A stretch of DNA of 64,000 bases, taken from NCBI GenBank assembly GCA_015059425.1, contig SVAM01000001.1:92027-156026 (forward strand), read 5' to 3'. The notes under the pieces are model-generated. The model saw nothing but the letters and a program-made list of their open reading frames with translations, did no database searches and was not told where the DNA came from. Position 1 is the stretch's first letter. The number at the start of each line of letters is the position of its first letter. Positions 12,930 to 28,101 of this stretch are shown piece after piece. The DNA is from Bacillota bacterium. Its GTDB lineage: Bacteria > Bacillota_I > Bacilli_A > RF39 > UBA660. A program made the translations under genes and the position numbers.

Positions 12930-14696
12930 CTAATTTGATATAACTTCATATGGACTATCAATAGTTCCTAAACCAGTTAATGTTACAGTTGGACTTAAGT
13001 TGATAACTGGACGAACACCTACAATTTCATCTTCTAATGCCCAATTAGTCGACTCACCTAATGTTACAATAAAATCACTCAACACACCATTCAAACTCAC
13101 ATTAAACACATTTGAGGCACCTCCGTGTTCAGAATAGAAAGCAGGCGAAATAGTCCAATAACCATTTCCTGTGTATAAGTAATAGTTTTTATTTATATCA
13201 CTACCATCTGATTTATAAGTTACCCCACCTGCATATGCTACTTCATCTGCTGTTATCAATCCTATTGGATAAGTTAAAGTTTTATTACCAATACTAGAAC
13301 TACTTACTGTATATAAATCTCTACTATCTGGACATCCAAATGTTGGAGTTGGATAATTAGATAAGTTTAATCTTGTTAATGCTCCATAATCATAGTGTTC
13401 ATAACCTTCTATGCAATTACCTTCTTCATCTTCTACATCGCATACACCAAAAGATATTGTATAATTCCTGTCGCTGCAAAAACCAGATTCTGTATCTATG
13501 TTGGCCTCAAATTCTGTATTTAAAATGTTATTTCTATACCATTCTTCTAATTCACTTTTTATATCGCTATTTAAACTATTTCCGTGTATTTCTGCACCAC
13601 TATACATAAAGCCTACATGTTCATATCCACCGCCATTAGCATTAAAAGAACTAGTTCCTATATGAGTATAAGGCTTTTCGTTTACAGAATCATCATACCC
13701 ATTCGCAAGTACACTTTCTTTACCAGCCGCATCTACTTCTGATACTTTTCCACTATATATCATTCTTATTGAGCCATTTTCATTTATTCTTATTATTCGC
13801 CAATAGAATCCTGCAAATTTTACATAGTTATCTTTTGGGGCTCCTCTAAAGTAATATGTTACATTATCATTATTTTCTGATAATAATGTCGCTCTTACTT
13901 TTGGTGTTGTAGAGTTTGTTAATTCTGTTGTTGTTTCTTCCACTACCTCTTTATATATTACTCCTGTTATTTCTTCTGTTGCTACTTCACTAAAATCTGT
14001 TTCTGTTCTTATTTCATTCATATTTGCTAGTATTATATCTTTAGGAGTTATTGCAGTTTCTAATGCTTGTTCTACTGTTACTGTTCCCTCAAATTTTCCA
14101 CCTTCCACTTGCTCTTGTTCTTCTTCTGTATTTGGGAATTCTAATACTACATAATAATAAGTTTCTGTTCCATTACTTGTTGCTGTTATACTTTCTTGAT
14201 TTTTTAATATTATTTTTGATGTTGAATTAGTTTTTGATATTGTTCCACTTGATACTGCTTCACCTAATGCACTTTCATTTGCCATTGTACATTCTTCATA
14301 ATATCTTATTTCTCCTATTAGATAATCTTCTTTTGCTGTACATGTCATACTTACTTCTTTTTCACTATCTACTTTATATACTGTGTAATTTAGTGCACTT
14401 GATAATGTATTTGTTCCATTCCATATTAAATCATAATATATTTCTTTGTCATCCCCTGTTGCTGTTAATTTAATGCTTGATATATTCTTATGTCCTGGTA
14501 ATATATCTGTATCATTAAATTCTAAATTACCAGTAATTTCTACTGTTACATCATTTATTTCTTTAGTTATGGCATTTACACTTGACCCACTTCCTGTAAA
14601 GTTAACTCGCATAACATAGTATGCAAAAGTTACACCAATTGTTAGTAATAAAATTGTTGTTATTATGGCTAATGATATTTTATACTTGTTTTTCAT
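12930..14696 (-). CDS. large exported surface protein (family A), behind a poly-G tract
   Basis: The 588-residue protein starts with a basic segment and one hydrophobic helix, MKNKYKISLAIITTILLLTI then GVTFAYYV, a signal or anchor resembling the TasA/SipW-type leader. A beta-rich region of about 190 residues follows. The C-terminal ~280 residues are shared with two other proteins here (24.7 and 26.8 kb): motifs DNYVKFAGFYWRIIRINENG, LANGYDDS, LITADEVAYAGG, YWTISP, VRPVINLS and a GTIDSPYEV ending. No LPXTG sorting motif. Ribosome site GGAGGTG. Expression probably depends on the upstream leader ORF and its G tract. Adhesin or surface-layer roles are guesses. Confidence 0.85.
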   Translation of the reverse strand: MKNKYKISLAIITTILLLTIGVTFAYYVMRVNFTGSGSSVNAITKEINDVTVEITGNLEFNDTDILPGHKNISSIKLTATGDDKEIYYDLIWNGTNTLSSALNYTVYKVDSEKEVSMTCTAKEDYLIGEIRYYEECTMANESALGEAVSSGTISKTNSTSKIILKNQESITATSNGTETYYYVVLEFPNTEEEQEQVEGGKFEGTVTVEQALETAITPKDIILANMNEIRTETDFSEVATEEITGVIYKEVVEETTTELTNSTTPKVRATLLSENNDNVTYYFRGAPKDNYVKFAGFYWRIIRINENGSIRMIYSGKVSEVDAAGKESVLANGYDDSVNEKPYTHIGTSSFNANGGGYEHVGFMYSGAEIHGNSLNSDIKSELEEWYRNNILNTEFEANIDTESGFCSDRNYTISFGVCDVEDEEGNCIEGYEHYDYGALTRLNLSNYPTPTFGCPDSRDLYTVSSSSIGNKTLTYPIGLITADEVAYAGGVTYKSDGSDINKNYYLYTGNGYWTISPAFYSEHGGASNVFNVSLNGVLSDFIVTLGESTNWALEDEIVGVRPVINLSPTVTLTGLGTIDSPYEVISN

Positions 14697-14762
14697 TTTG
14701 TCACCTCCATTTCTAAAGGTAACTTAAAGCTATTTTGCCTTGATACTACTTGAGTTTTTAAC

Positions 14763-14828
14763 TTAAATAGCCCCCCCCCCAGTAGCATTTTTGGCAACTG
14801 TTGGGAAGTTCTTAAATAATTCTTTCAT
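14763..14828 (-). CDS. short leader ORF containing the G tract
   Basis: ATG at 14828, with an AAGGAAG ribosome site seven bases upstream, opens MKELFKNFPTVAKNATGGG; with ten G the frame ends after Ala-Ile at TAA (14765-14763), 21 codons. Removing one G (or adding two) would let the frame run on 25 codons and stop at a TGA that overlaps the ATG of the surface protein gene as ATGA. Adding one G gives an early stop. Only the coding potential and ribosome site are seen; expression is inferred. Confidence 0.6.
   Translation of the reverse strand: MKELFKNFPTVAKNATGGGAI
14771..14780. repeat. homopolymeric tract, ten C (ten G on the coding strand)
   Basis: Ten consecutive C in an otherwise very AT-rich genome. 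It lies 75-84 bases upstream of the surface protein start and inside the leader ORF. Such tracts are prone to slipped-strand length change. Confidence 0.95.
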
Positions 14829-14856
14829 TTCTCTACTTCCTTCCTATGATATTTAA

Positions 14857-14885
14857 AATATACCATATATTAAACTTTTTGTCTA
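14857..14885 (-). promoter_or_regulatory. promoter of the leader ORF and surface protein gene
   Basis: TAGACA (14885-14880), 17-base spacer, TATATT (14862-14857) with an extended TG. It places the start of transcription near 14850, some 20 bases before the leader ORF. Confidence 0.6.
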
Positions 14886-14898
14886 TGCCAAAACATTT

Positions 14899-14925
14899 AA
14901 AAAACAGATATTTTTACATATCTAT
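14899..14925 (-). terminator. terminator of the 400-aa helical protein gene
   Basis: Stem AGATAT/ATATCT extended by neighbouring A-T pairs, with six T on the minus strand. It overlaps the stop at 14922. Confidence 0.6.
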
Positions 14926-16124
14926 TTAATTTTTAAACTTCTATTCATTTTTTTATCATCATTTAAATATTCTTTTATTTTATTTACTATTTTACTATCA
15001 AATAAATGCTCATGGTGATATCTAAATATGAAATTAATTGTTTCTAATAGATTAATAGAATTTATTAAATATAGTTCTTTCATTAAATTCAAATAATATT
15101 TAGAATCTTTATTTTTAATTAATTTATCTAGTGTATAACTTATAAATCTTCCATTTAATGAAGATAGTAAATACACATTTTTAGTAAAATTATCTTCTTC
15201 TAATATAGAATCTATAGCTTTATAAGTCATTACTGAATCAGTTGTAACTGCTAATGCAAAGATTTTTGTTTTATCATTTTCTTCTATAGCTTGTGTTATT
15301 AATTCATTTTGCTTTTCTTCTTCAATTAAATTCGTTAGTTTAGTTATTACATTAATATCATTTAAATTAATAATGTCATCAATTAAATTAGTGTAGTCTG
15401 GATTAATTTTATAAAGCATTAATAATAATTCACTTTGTACTTTTTTATTTTCTATCTCTTTAGTAATTGATATAATTTCGTTATAATACTCTTTTTTTTC
15501 TTTAAATTTTGAAGCAAGCTCCCATATTGTTTCATAAGTAAAGTCTTTTTTAGTTAAATATTTTTTAATAAATTCTTTAGCTTGTTTTACATCTAAAATA
15601 TTTATGTATTTGATTACATAATAGTTACTATTAAATTCAATTATTTTATTTTCAAATTCTTCATTCCTAAAACTATTCAATTTCATTAAAATTAAATGGT
15701 CTCCATTTAATTTTAATCTCAAAAAATAATTTTTAATTATTTTAATTTTATCTTTGTATTTTTCTGGATTTTTATCTGCAATTTGTGCTAATGTTATTAA
15801 CATATTATCATTTTTTGTTAATAAAGCTATATCAAAAAATTCTTCAAAATATTTTATATAATATTTTGAATATGCTAGACTGGTCCTTCTTTCAATATGA
15901 TGTTTAATAATTACTTTTCTTTGTTCTTTATTTGCTTTATCTAAAAGTAAAAATAAAGTTGTACTATAGTATCCATGCTTCATGTAATCTATCAATGGTC
16001 CTATGTCTTTTTCGCTAATTAATTGCATTACTTCATCATAATTATATTTTAAACCATCAACAATATAATCATATTCTCCCAATAATAAGTATTTTTTTAT
16101 TCTTAATTTATATAATATATCCAT
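14922..16124 (-). CDS. long alpha-helical protein of unknown function (400 aa)
   Basis: I cannot assign a family. The sequence is Leu/Ile/Lys/Asn-rich and looks like a solenoid of helices, without membrane segments. The C-terminal part (LNGRFISYTLDKLIKNKDSK and what follows) resembles the corresponding region of the two proteins that flank parE (LDERYVKYVLEKI and LDKRYVLFIIDKI), so it is a probable distant paralogue of that family. The gene stands alone between a terminator and pgsA. The start at 16124 lies after GAAAGGATATGAACT, a usable ribosome site. Confidence 0.78.
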   Translation of the reverse strand: MDILYKLRIKKYLLLGEYDYIVDGLKYNYDEVMQLISEKDIGPLIDYMKHGYYSTTLFLLLDKANKEQRKVIIKHHIERRTSLAYSKYYIKYFEEFFDIALLTKNDNMLITLAQIADKNPEKYKDKIKIIKNYFLRLKLNGDHLILMKLNSFRNEEFENKIIEFNSNYYVIKYINILDVKQAKEFIKKYLTKKDFTYETIWELASKFKEKKEYYNEIISITKEIENKKVQSELLLMLYKINPDYTNLIDDIINLNDINVITKLTNLIEEEKQNELITQAIEENDKTKIFALAVTTDSVMTYKAIDSILEEDNFTKNVYLLSSLNGRFISYTLDKLIKNKDSKYYLNLMKELYLINSINLLETINFIFRYHHEHLFDSKIVNKIKEYLNDDKKMNRSLKIK

Positions 16125-24693: not shown

Positions 24694-26823
24694 CTATTCA
24701 GCTATTTCATAAGGAGTACTTATTGTACCATTTCCTTTTAATTTAATGCCAGAAGTAGACAGATTTATAACAGGACGAATTCCAGATGGGTCTACTGTAT
24801 TAGTAAATTTTCCATCCATTTTTGTATAACCCCAATAAAATATATGATTCTCATGATGACTTACATAGCCAAAATTACTCCATGGCGATATTGTCCAATA
24901 TTGATTTCCTGTATATAAATAAAATTTATCATTTGATACAGCGGCACTTCCGCCAGCAAATGCTATTTCGTCTGCTGTTATTAATCCTATTGGATATGTT
25001 AAATCTCCATTACCTTTATTAGATTCGTTTTCAACAGTATATAAATCTCCCCAAGAACATTCAAAACTTGGAGTTTTTCTAGCAACATTTCTTGAATATG
25101 CCAAATAATAACCCATGCTAGGGAAATCTGCATGATCTAGATTTTCTGATAAATTGTGATTTATGGTTTTTTCTGAGCAAAAACCGGATTCTTTATCTAT
25201 ATAATTAGCATAGTTTGTTAAATTTGAAATATACCAATTATCTAGTCTTTCTTTTATTATACTATCTCCATCATAAATAGCATTATCATTAATTAAATAA
25301 TCTACTCTTTCATATTCAGAAAACATACTAGCGCCTATTTGCGTGTAATTTCCTGAAGAATCATTATATCCATTTGCTAACACTGTTTCTTTTCCAGCAC
25401 TTTCAACATCATAAACCTTTCCATTGTATATTAATCTTAATGATCCATTTTCGTTTATTCTAATAATTCTCCAATAATGATTTGCAAATTTAAAATAGTT
25501 ATCATTAACATCTCCGCGATAAAAATAAGTTATATTTCTACTATTTTCAGTACAAACTTGTTTTGTTTCAACATCCCAACAATATAAGCCCACATTTTTA
25601 TCACATTGGTAATTATTTTCTATATCGCAACTACTATAGCTTACTTTATTATAATTAGGTTTATCTACACCTTTTTTACTATTTGACAATACTATAATAG
25701 ATGATGCAATAGATAAGTCCATTGGATAGCTTATACCTATGTTACCAAACGAATCTTTTATATGTATATAATATAAATCACTAGAAGTTATTACTGATGT
25801 TTTTGTTACTGTATTTTTTATTATATTCCCATTTTCTATACAATCATTCATATTATTCACATCTGAATTTTTATTTATACAGTAAGTTCCATCTTTGCTA
25901 GATTGAAACATAATTTTTGGATTAATTTTTTTATTATCAATTACCATCGCTGTTATTATTGGAGTACTGACTTTAAACTTTAAATTACACCTCGTTCCGT
26001 TAGTACTTAAATTTTTTAACACTAAAGCCCACTCTGTATCGTCCCATATAGGTGTTACATTATTAGTACAACTACTATTCTCGTCATCTAAATAATAAGC
26101 ATCTTTTTCTGGAAATTCGTCACTAGATGTTTCATTACCATCCAAATCTACTAATGTAATACTTGCTATAGTAACATCAGGTTCTACCTCACTTGATGAT
26201 ATAGTTAATGTGCCACTAAATCCTTCACCTATATCATCATTTTGAACTTCTTCTTTATTAGGGTATTCTATTACTACATAATAATATGTAGTCCCAGCTT
26301 CAGTAGATGCATTAATAAATCCTGGATCTAATATTACAATTCCTACATTGTTTTCACTAATAGGAATTGTTCCTGTAGATACTAACTCACCTAAATCTTT
26401 ATTTATTGTACAATTATCTGTTAAGTGTTGTTTACCATCCACTACTTCTGTAACAACTTCACAAGTAGTTTGTACTCCAGTTATTTTAGTATCACTTTTA
26501 TAGACAGAAAAATTCAATTCAGAGTTAAAAGTATTAGTTCCATACCAAATTAATTGATAAGCTACTAAAGAACCATCACCTTCAGCACTTAGACTTACAG
26601 CTGATACACTTTTATGTCCCGGGTATATTTCATCATCATTAAATGTTAATTCACCATTTAAGATTAATTTTGATGAGTCATTTTCATAATATGCTACTTT
26701 GCCTCTAGTATTACTTCCACTTCCGGTTAATGAATTAATTACAAAGAAATATGCAGTTGATAAACCACCTATTACTAGTAGAATAGAAACTAATATTAAT
26801 AATTTTTTATTCATTTTTTTCAT
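24694..26823 (-). CDS. large exported surface protein (family B)
   Basis: A 709-residue relative of the protein at 12930. It has a basic N-terminus and one hydrophobic helix (about residues 7-30), then the same early block, LTFNDDEIYPGHKSVSAVSL, as the 12.9-kb protein (LEFNDTDILPGHKNISSI). A Cys-containing middle region not present in the others follows. The shared C-terminal domain has NYFKFANHYWRIIRINENG, LANGYNDSS, LITADEIAFAGG, YWTISPW, IRPVINLS and GTISTPYEI. No sorting motif is seen. It follows the 424-residue homologue by three bases, so both are one operon. Confidence 0.85.
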   Translation of the reverse strand: MKKMNKKLLILVSILLVIGGLSTAYFFVINSLTGSGSNTRGKVAYYENDSSKLILNGELTFNDDEIYPGHKSVSAVSLSAEGDGSLVAYQLIWYGTNTFNSELNFSVYKSDTKITGVQTTCEVVTEVVDGKQHLTDNCTINKDLGELVSTGTIPISENNVGIVILDPGFINASTEAGTTYYYVVIEYPNKEEVQNDDIGEGFSGTLTISSSEVEPDVTIASITLVDLDGNETSSDEFPEKDAYYLDDENSSCTNNVTPIWDDTEWALVLKNLSTNGTRCNLKFKVSTPIITAMVIDNKKINPKIMFQSSKDGTYCINKNSDVNNMNDCIENGNIIKNTVTKTSVITSSDLYYIHIKDSFGNIGISYPMDLSIASSIIVLSNSKKGVDKPNYNKVSYSSCDIENNYQCDKNVGLYCWDVETKQVCTENSRNITYFYRGDVNDNYFKFANHYWRIIRINENGSLRLIYNGKVYDVESAGKETVLANGYNDSSGNYTQIGASMFSEYERVDYLINDNAIYDGDSIIKERLDNWYISNLTNYANYIDKESGFCSEKTINHNLSENLDHADFPSMGYYLAYSRNVARKTPSFECSWGDLYTVENESNKGNGDLTYPIGLITADEIAFAGGSAAVSNDKFYLYTGNQYWTISPWSNFGYVSHHENHIFYWGYTKMDGKFTNTVDPSGIRPVINLSTSGIKLKGNGTISTPYEIAE

Positions 26824-26826
26824 TTT

Positions 26827-28101
26827 CTATTCCCCCGCTTCTATAACTTCATATGGTGTATCAATTGTCCCATCACCTGATAATTCTAAACCAGCTTTTA
26901 AATTAATTACAGGTCGTACCCCTTCACCAGGATCATAAGCATTACCATATCCCATACTACCGTTTTCATTTATATCAACTAATCTTGCATGTTTTCCTTC
27001 GTCAACACCATCTTCGTTTGTATAATCATCATAAAAGCTTGGTGACATTGTCCAGTATCTATAACCAGTATATAAATAATAACTAGTATTTGCACTATAA
27101 AATACCCCACCTGCATATGCTACTTCTTCGGCAGTTATTAACCCTACTTTTGTTTTATATAAATCATCACTATTTGGGCAACTAAATAACGGAGTTTTAT
27201 TTGTGTTATTTCTTATATATGCTCCATAATATGTTTTTGTAGTACTTGTATCTGTTTCAATTTCTGTTCCTGTATCATCGGTATATGCTGTTCTATCTCC
27301 ACAGAATCCTGCACTATCATCTATATACTTATCATAACCTTTATTTTCTATATATATTTCATACCAATTAAGTAATACATCAAGTATTTTTGAATTATAT
27401 TTTGTACCATTACTTTCATATTGAAAACCTACATATTTACTGTCATTTGAAGCATAACTAAACGCACTATTACCATATTTAAGATATCCAGTTGTAGAAT
27501 CATTATAGCCATTTGCTAAAACAGTTTCTTTATTTGATCCTATTGTACCTACATTACCACTATATATCATTCTGATTGAACCATTTTCATTTATTCTTAT
27601 TATTCTCCAATAATGATTTGCAAATTTTACATAGTTATCTGTTGGAGCTCCAGTATAATAATATGTTGTTCCTTCATCTGTATTTTCTTTATAAATTTTT
27701 CCGGTAGTTGATGAACCATTGGTACCAGCAAAACTTGTTCTTGTTGTTGTCTCTTTTATTGTTGCTAAAATAGTTGAACTTGCATTAGCAGGATCAAAAT
27801 ATAAAAAACATTGTGTATTTTTACTTTTTAAATTAGTTAATACAACTTCTCCTTCTCTATATATAGGTACTGCCCCGTTACTACATACACTTTTTTCTGT
27901 ATTTAAAATATAATTTTCTGGTATAGTTTCTTCTTCTTGATATAATCCATCAGTATTTTGAATAAAAAATGCCATATCTTTTACATTTGTTATATTTTCT
28001 TCTTGAATTTCATTTTTATATTCTTTTTTTGGTATAACTATTATTACCGTCATAATTAATATTATTAAAGCAATTACTATTGTCATTTTCTTTTTTTTCA
28101 T
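26827..28101 (-). CDS. exported surface protein (family C), first gene of the pair
   Basis: The 424-residue protein starts MKKKKMTIVIALIILIMTVI, a basic cap and one membrane helix, then a short spacer and the same ~260-residue C-terminal domain as the proteins at 12930 and 24694: NYVKFANHYWRIIRINENG, LANGYNDSTTG, LITAEEVAYAGG, YWTMSPS, VRPVINLK, GTIDTPYEV. It lacks the LTFNDDEI...PGHK block of the other two. A consensus promoter lies just upstream and the ribosome site is AAAGGTGAG. No G or C tract is present, so its control differs from that of the 12.9-kb gene. Confidence 0.85.
   Translation of the reverse strand: MKKKKMTIVIALIILIMTVIIVIPKKEYKNEIQEENITNVKDMAFFIQNTDGLYQEEETIPENYILNTEKSVCSNGAVPIYREGEVVLTNLKSKNTQCFLYFDPANASSTILATIKETTTRTSFAGTNGSSTTGKIYKENTDEGTTYYYTGAPTDNYVKFANHYWRIIRINENGSIRMIYSGNVGTIGSNKETVLANGYNDSTTGYLKYGNSAFSYASNDSKYVGFQYESNGTKYNSKILDVLLNWYEIYIENKGYDKYIDDSAGFCGDRTAYTDDTGTEIETDTSTTKTYYGAYIRNNTNKTPLFSCPNSDDLYKTKVGLITAEEVAYAGGVFYSANTSYYLYTGYRYWTMSPSFYDDYTNEDGVDEGKHARLVDINENGSMGYGNAYDPGEGVRPVINLKAGLELSGDGTIDTPYEVIEAGE

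Follow-up and report, generated by a model that had tools for sequence, protein, structure and literature searches.

A G-tract leader ORF as a candidate phase-variable switch for translation of a surface protein in an uncultured gut Bacillota bacterium

The closest known system to the locus described here is the leader-peptide phase variation of Streptococcus gallolyticus pil1/pil3, in which ribosomes translating a leader ORF disturb a terminator hairpin or not depending on its GCAGA repeats (PMC3894217). We analyzed a 64,000-nucleotide stretch of DNA from a Bacillota bacterium (hereafter the window) that carries a similar layout: upstream of a surface gene lies a short leader ORF that has a ribosome site of its own and contains a slippage-prone repeat, the repeat number places the leader stop before or in a hairpin, and multiple copies exist per genome. 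The parts differ, however; pil1/pil3 uses a GCAGA pentamer and an intrinsic terminator, whereas the window leader has a G tract, a hairpin over a ribosome site without a U-run, and an overlap of the leader stop with the gene start (ATGA). Compared with the pil type, the window leader matched in having a repeat that sets the stop relative to a hairpin, and failed on the intrinsic terminator.

Translational coupling with a masked downstream ribosome site is a general bacterial mechanism, and is normally constitutive. Clusters of translational coupling have been predicted (PMC3711429). The window leader exhibited both hallmarks, a stop/start overlap and a masking hairpin (the mask by prediction only) of the kind opened by upstream translation, with the difference that a hypermutable tract breaks or restores the upstream frame. 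Neisseria porA varies in phase through a poly-G promoter spacer (PMC3639595); this type, common in the window's genus and family, likewise has G tracts of ~8–11 governing surface proteins, but the window tract lies inside a leader ORF, 3′ of an intact promoter. In the Bifidobacterium breve pilus switch, slippage between G9 and G12 in the first pilus gene fuses two protein halves (PMC9187656). The likeness there is that of a gut commensal's surface genes, a G tract, and a frame that decides expression, whereas the tract is in-gene in B. breve and the window surface protein is unaltered.

We then mapped the window locus, for which the first-pass annotation had claimed ten consecutive G in a leader ORF between a promoter and a gene for a large exported protein. 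All of these elements were confirmed, and all lie on the minus strand. The promoter (TAGACA-17 nt-TATATT with an extended −10 TGG, 14885–14857) drives the leader ORF, and an equivalent promoter was seen by eye upstream of the remaining leader copies. As had also been claimed, the leader has its own ribosome-binding site (GGAAGGAAG, 14844–14836), which can pair with AACTTCCC (14803–14810) inside the leader; its ATG is at 14828–14826. The G10 tract (C10 on the plus strand) occupies 14771–14780 and is the proposed slippage site, for which there are no read data. The controlled gene (12930–14696) encodes a 588-aa exported protein and has the ribosome-binding site GGAGGTGA at 14701–14708. A promoter-spacer switch was considered at this locus and rejected, as the whole promoter (14885–14857) is located 5′ of the tract (14780–14771), which is not between −35 and −10. 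An Rfam search gave no match up to E = 1.

In its present 10-G form, the leader (14763–14828) encodes 21 codons, MKELFKNFPTVAKNATGGGAI, and ends at TAA 14765–14763, as the first-pass annotation had stated; this is the OFF form. With 9 or 12 G, the ORF extends to 14693–14828 and its TGA (14695–14693) overlaps the surface-gene ATG (14696–14694) as ATGA. The predicted overlap was therefore correct, but the predicted extension of 25 codons was not, since the ON form is only 23 codons longer (44 codons at 9 G). An early leader stop at 11 G was borne out as well.

The organism's own genome (G000; 1.15 Mb, with ~25% GC in the stretches read) carries seven copies of this leader, each before a related exported protein. 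The surface-protein family comprises ~20 paralogous loci in the genome, most of them without a leader; a tandem pair of such leaderless paralogs is located on the minus strand at window ~24700–27650 (G000:C12:116726–119674). Tract lengths in the seven copies were 10, 10, 10, 9, 6, 6 and GGGGAGGGG, the last being an interrupted 9-nt tract (4+A+4), whereas the 48 nt before the tract and the 78 nt after it were constant in all seven, so that three copies are OFF and four are ON. G10 runs are expected at ~0.002 per genome of such composition (an arithmetic estimate), and the genome contains four G runs of at least 9, every one of them in a copy of the window leader; a chance tract was rejected on this ground. 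The contigs end at leader copies C11 and C15, the repeat having probably broken the assembly there, and both continuations of these contig-end copies seem to be represented by C10 and the start of C14.

We compared the locus with 36 genomes of the genus and 386 genomes of the family. A homologous leader was found with 9 G, in the ON frame, in G162 (rabbit-gut MAG contig CANQDN010000020.1) and with 10 G, in the OFF frame, in G163 (CANQHE010000044.1). As far as the contigs extend, the products of the genes downstream of both are exported, and no similarity to the window protein was detectable in them. A third relative, G172, has an unrelated leader, MEQTYVWGGVVNRINILTKGVVNI, with tracts of 9–11 G and both ON and OFF members among six analysable copies; its leader-preceded genes are homologous to the window surface family. 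Leader and gene pairings thus differ between species, indicating that leaders and genes have recombined, and the leader design apparently had more than one origin. The ATGA overlap was present in 7/7 own copies, in G162 and G163, and in all six G172 copies. Both rabbit-gut relatives were recovered by a DNA pattern search; a leader profile search of the 386 family genomes (E cut-off 0.001) found the own genome only, and degenerate peptide patterns run against GTDB genome contigs, own genome excluded, found zero leader relatives.

These comparisons bear on two proposals of the first-pass annotation: that related genomes be searched for a leader with varying tract length, which was found (9 G in G162, 10 G in G163), and that one tract length everywhere would refute the idea, which is not the case (6, 9, 10 G and the interrupted 9-nt tract in the own genome; 9 to 11 in relatives). 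Length differences in a homopolymer were present between copies (own 10, 10, 10, 9; G172 9–11) and between relatives (G162/G163 9/10). The proposed frame logic held as well and was seen again at all seven paralogous loci, in both sister species and, with an unrelated leader, in a third species. Tract lengths were taken from assembled metagenomes, in which homopolymers are error-prone, and there is no read-level evidence of a mixture. The coupling reading is supported, while slippage within one population and tract-dependent protein output remain unproven.

We interpret the leader as a phase-variable translational ON/OFF switch of the surface protein acting via translational coupling, and assign this reading a probability of roughly 0.77. 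The sequence anatomy, recurrence, frame conservation, coding-type substitutions and predicted hairpins were obtained directly, whereas slippage in cells, hairpin melting, re-initiation and biological role are inferred. In the proposed mechanism, one promoter would transcribe leader and surface gene as a unit, and the strong ribosome site of the surface gene would be folded in a hairpin, out of direct reach. At tract lengths divisible by three (6, 9, 12), leader ribosomes would traverse and melt the hairpin, end at the TGA within ATGA, and then pass to the surface gene. At other lengths, they would stop no more than ~13 nt past the tract, ~50 nt before the buried site, so that expression of the surface gene would remain low and basal. 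Each paralogous switch would be flipped independently of the others by slipped-strand mispairing at its G tract as the DNA replicates, and the biological role may be variation of the gut commensal's surface coat.

The hairpin was missing from the first-pass annotation and, as a prediction, supplies a physical basis for the coupling idea. In the window copy it is predicted at 14700–14723 as GUUACCUUUA-GAAA-UGGAGGUGAC with 10 pairs, burying the downstream ribosome site, and it falls within the leader ORF in the ON state only. Across the seven copies the main ribosome site sits within the 3′ arm of the 10-pair hairpin GUUACCUUUA-loop-UAGAGGUGAC, and differences are confined to the 4-nt loop and one pairing-preserving A-to-G change in the stem of the window copy, which improves the ribosome site. 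The predicted cost of opening the ribosome site was 8.4–10.8 kcal/mol in the seven copies vs a median of 1.75 for 36 window genes, among which the window surface gene (~10 kcal/mol) ranked highest; nine leaderless paralogs gave 0.2–3.2 kcal/mol. For the −16..+4 region, the own copies cost 11.2–12.4 vs a median of 5.0, and the relatives G162, G163 and G172 cost 8.0–13.6 by different hairpins and sequences: a CCUCU/AGAGG pairing together with a start-codon hairpin in G162/G163, and a 10–12-pair hairpin that includes the AUG in G172 (all predicted). The G162 ribosome site alone costs just 1.6 kcal/mol, against 8.8 for its −16..+4 region. Rank-test P values for this occlusion overstate the evidence, as paralogs are not independent and the effective number is about three designs, and are indicative only. 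When the tract of the window copy was varied from 5 to 13 G in silico, the main site stayed buried (11.5–12.6). As this burial does not depend on tract length, the tract can affect the main gene only via leader translation, and opening of the hairpin should require a ribosome that reads the ON frame.

The alternative that survives best, although we consider it improbable, is transcription attenuation or polarity as in S. gallolyticus pil1, whereby ribosomes reading through the hairpin prevent premature termination. Its layout is that of the proven pil1 system, where a leader repeat sets the stop before or in a hairpin upstream of the surface gene (PMC3894217). The window hairpin, however, holds the ribosome site itself and is not followed by a T run, a scan of 14600–14960 found no terminator-like site, and attenuation does not require an ATGA stop/start overlap. 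Furthermore, Rho was unmatched in four genomes of the genus (G000, G162, G163, G172) by a search whose control detected it in B. subtilis and L. lactis; the lack of a terminator-like site and of a Rho match argues against attenuation and polarity.

What the copies conserve is the leader frame. The copies unlikely to slip (tracts of 6, 6 and 4+A+4) were in the ON frame in 3/3 cases, and with their tracts short or interrupted they appear to be fixed in the ON state. In both C14 leaders, −1 and +1 changes cancel, turning KNFPTV into RTSQQF with the ON frame restored and the DNA nearly unchanged. Upstream of the hairpin, the ON frame had a pN/pS of 0.41 and zero stops in any copy, whereas the other two frames had a pN/pS of 1.5–1.6 and 2–4 stops per copy; the substitution pattern 5′ of the hairpin thus looks coding-type in the ON frame only. 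Dinucleotide shuffling of the window locus gave P ~0.07 for an open ON frame, so that one locus alone is weak evidence. The corresponding chance was 2–7% for any one own copy, 1–3% for G162/G163 and 11–17% for G172; these probabilities were not multiplied, as the own copies are related. Taken together, the seven copies, two sister species and independent G172 version constitute strong evidence, and it is unlikely that the leader designs arose by chance.

The same pN/pS of 0.41 could be read as a sign that the 44-residue leader peptide is a functional product whose phase variation is the point, with the gene overlap incidental, and the peptides are indeed similar across three species. We regard this as very unlikely, because residues 6–11 are swapped by frameshift in two copies while the DNA and the overall frame are kept, and the RNA hairpin accounts for the last codons: its stem has a single pairing-preserving A-to-G change and all other differences are in the loop. 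Moreover, the leader has no apparent signal peptide and is invariably upstream of an exported protein.

Equally improbable in our estimate is a role of the G run purely as an RNA element, either a small-RNA target or one strand of a competing helix, whose length tunes output gradually and whose frame is irrelevant. The precedent is Helicobacter pylori tlpB, in which a variable G repeat in the mRNA leader acts through binding of the small RNA RepG, with no leader ORF frame involved (PMC8295292). In the window-type leaders, AACTTCCC is identical in 7/7 copies, including where the reading frame is shifted, and its predicted partner is either the G tract or the leader ribosome site. Within window 14803–14844, AACUUCCC, identical in all own copies whatever the frame, is the predicted shared partner for which leader ribosome site and G tract compete. 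The leader start is predicted to be structured too, although long tracts weaken this, and the leader may therefore be translated only to a limited extent; in the window leader, the predicted cost of opening its ribosome site dropped from 6.6 kcal/mol with 5 G to 1.4 with 13 G. Tract length might therefore also tune leader translation gradually. Against a purely graded role stand the 6-G and interrupted-tract copies, which hold the frame exactly, the main ribosome site, which is buried at all lengths, and the G172 leaders, in which the pyrimidine pairing trend is absent. According to the folding predictions, AACUUCCC competition could superimpose a gradual effect on the frame effect in the window-type leader but cannot stand in for it; an RNA-element effect may thus act in addition to the frame switch, not instead of it.

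Homopolymer runs are known sites of RNA polymerase slippage and ribosomal frameshifting, but the proposal that either yields a constant ON fraction per cell without any DNA slippage is the least probable alternative, as tracts differ across paralogs and species, including 9 vs 10 in near-identical copies, although such events can coexist with the frame switch as basal leakage.

If the coupled switch is real, it would give an uncultured gut commensal (1.15 Mb genome) a means of varying its surface while its proteins stay the same: seven switches, with independent flipping apparently open to the four that have long tracts. The only proven leader-peptide phase-variation principle acts through transcription attenuation, and the switch would extend it to translation initiation. 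With so short a leader, and with the main gene intact whether ON or OFF, gene callers are likely to overlook switches of this kind; a G tract in a leader ORF together with a ribosome-site hairpin and ATGA provides a signature to search for elsewhere. In the literature searched, limited to open-licence papers, no report described coupling between a G-tract leader ORF and a masked ribosome site. We tentatively suggest, at somewhat less than even odds, a type not found in that literature: a modular G-tract leader ORF with conditional melting of a ribosome-site hairpin, unchanged proteins, at least two origins in one genus, different surface families, and a tract that is perhaps also a rheostat for the leader ribosome site.

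We also characterized the controlled protein, which comprises an N-terminal membrane helix, a beta-sandwich (~37–215) and a C-terminal domain (~277–588). Pfam and NCBIfam gave no useful match for it, and a full-length fold search returned generic beta-sandwich matches only; the beta-sandwich itself had generic structural matches at Z 6–8.5. The top VIA-align match of the C-terminal domain was 9qa6 (Z 11.1, 193 residues, 18% identity), in which the matched region is the part of the Thomasclavelia ramosa IgA peptidase holding its N-terminal CTLD, a domain described as C-type-lectin-like (PMC12237041). Other C-type lectins and CTLDs matched at Z 3–4.6. Foldseek and a sequence profile search gave nothing significant for this domain, so the C-type-lectin-like assignment is tentative; a surface ligand-binding role is likely. 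No reverse transcriptase of the diversity-generating retroelement type was found in the own genome, which is 96% complete, so that such an element is not excluded. The sole RVT_1 reverse transcriptase (G000:C9:52770–53312, L062) lies among ordinary genes and is retron-like by eye. Just 5′ of the G162 leader (L021 ~1130–1260, G162:C20), an AAC-rich stretch reads LSPNNFNGSNANVFNVNNDGNLNNNNVNNDNAFRPISF and resembles the template repeat of a diversity-generating retroelement.

Finally, we surveyed G tracts across the lineage. The genus contains 139 tracts of at least 8 G, in 25/36 genomes, and the 126 distinct tracts read fell into 55 promoter spacers, 21 gene N-termini, 8 coupled leaders and 42 without an assigned class. 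These counts indicate that G-tract switching is widespread in the lineage and that the coupled leader is an elaborated, less frequent form of it. A pattern search for a G tract before an ATGA start with a GAGGT ribosome site detected loci in 18/386 family genomes, from 18 genera; those read were mostly of the promoter type, before exported or pilin-like proteins. Many G tracts of 8–14 between −35 and −10 were seen in G097, G159, G163, G165, G172 and other genus genomes, and promoter-spacer tracts also occur at several of the 18 family loci (L172–L188 in other genera of the family); the genes downstream of spacer tracts encode exported or pilin-like proteins. Judged from sequence, promoter-spacer phase variation appears to be lineage-wide in these uncultured gut Bacilli. 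Within the window's genus, G tracts were also located in the first codons of exported-protein genes (L034, L058, L077, L081 and L103–L104, in G147, G163 and G166), the arrangement of classic in-gene frame switching.
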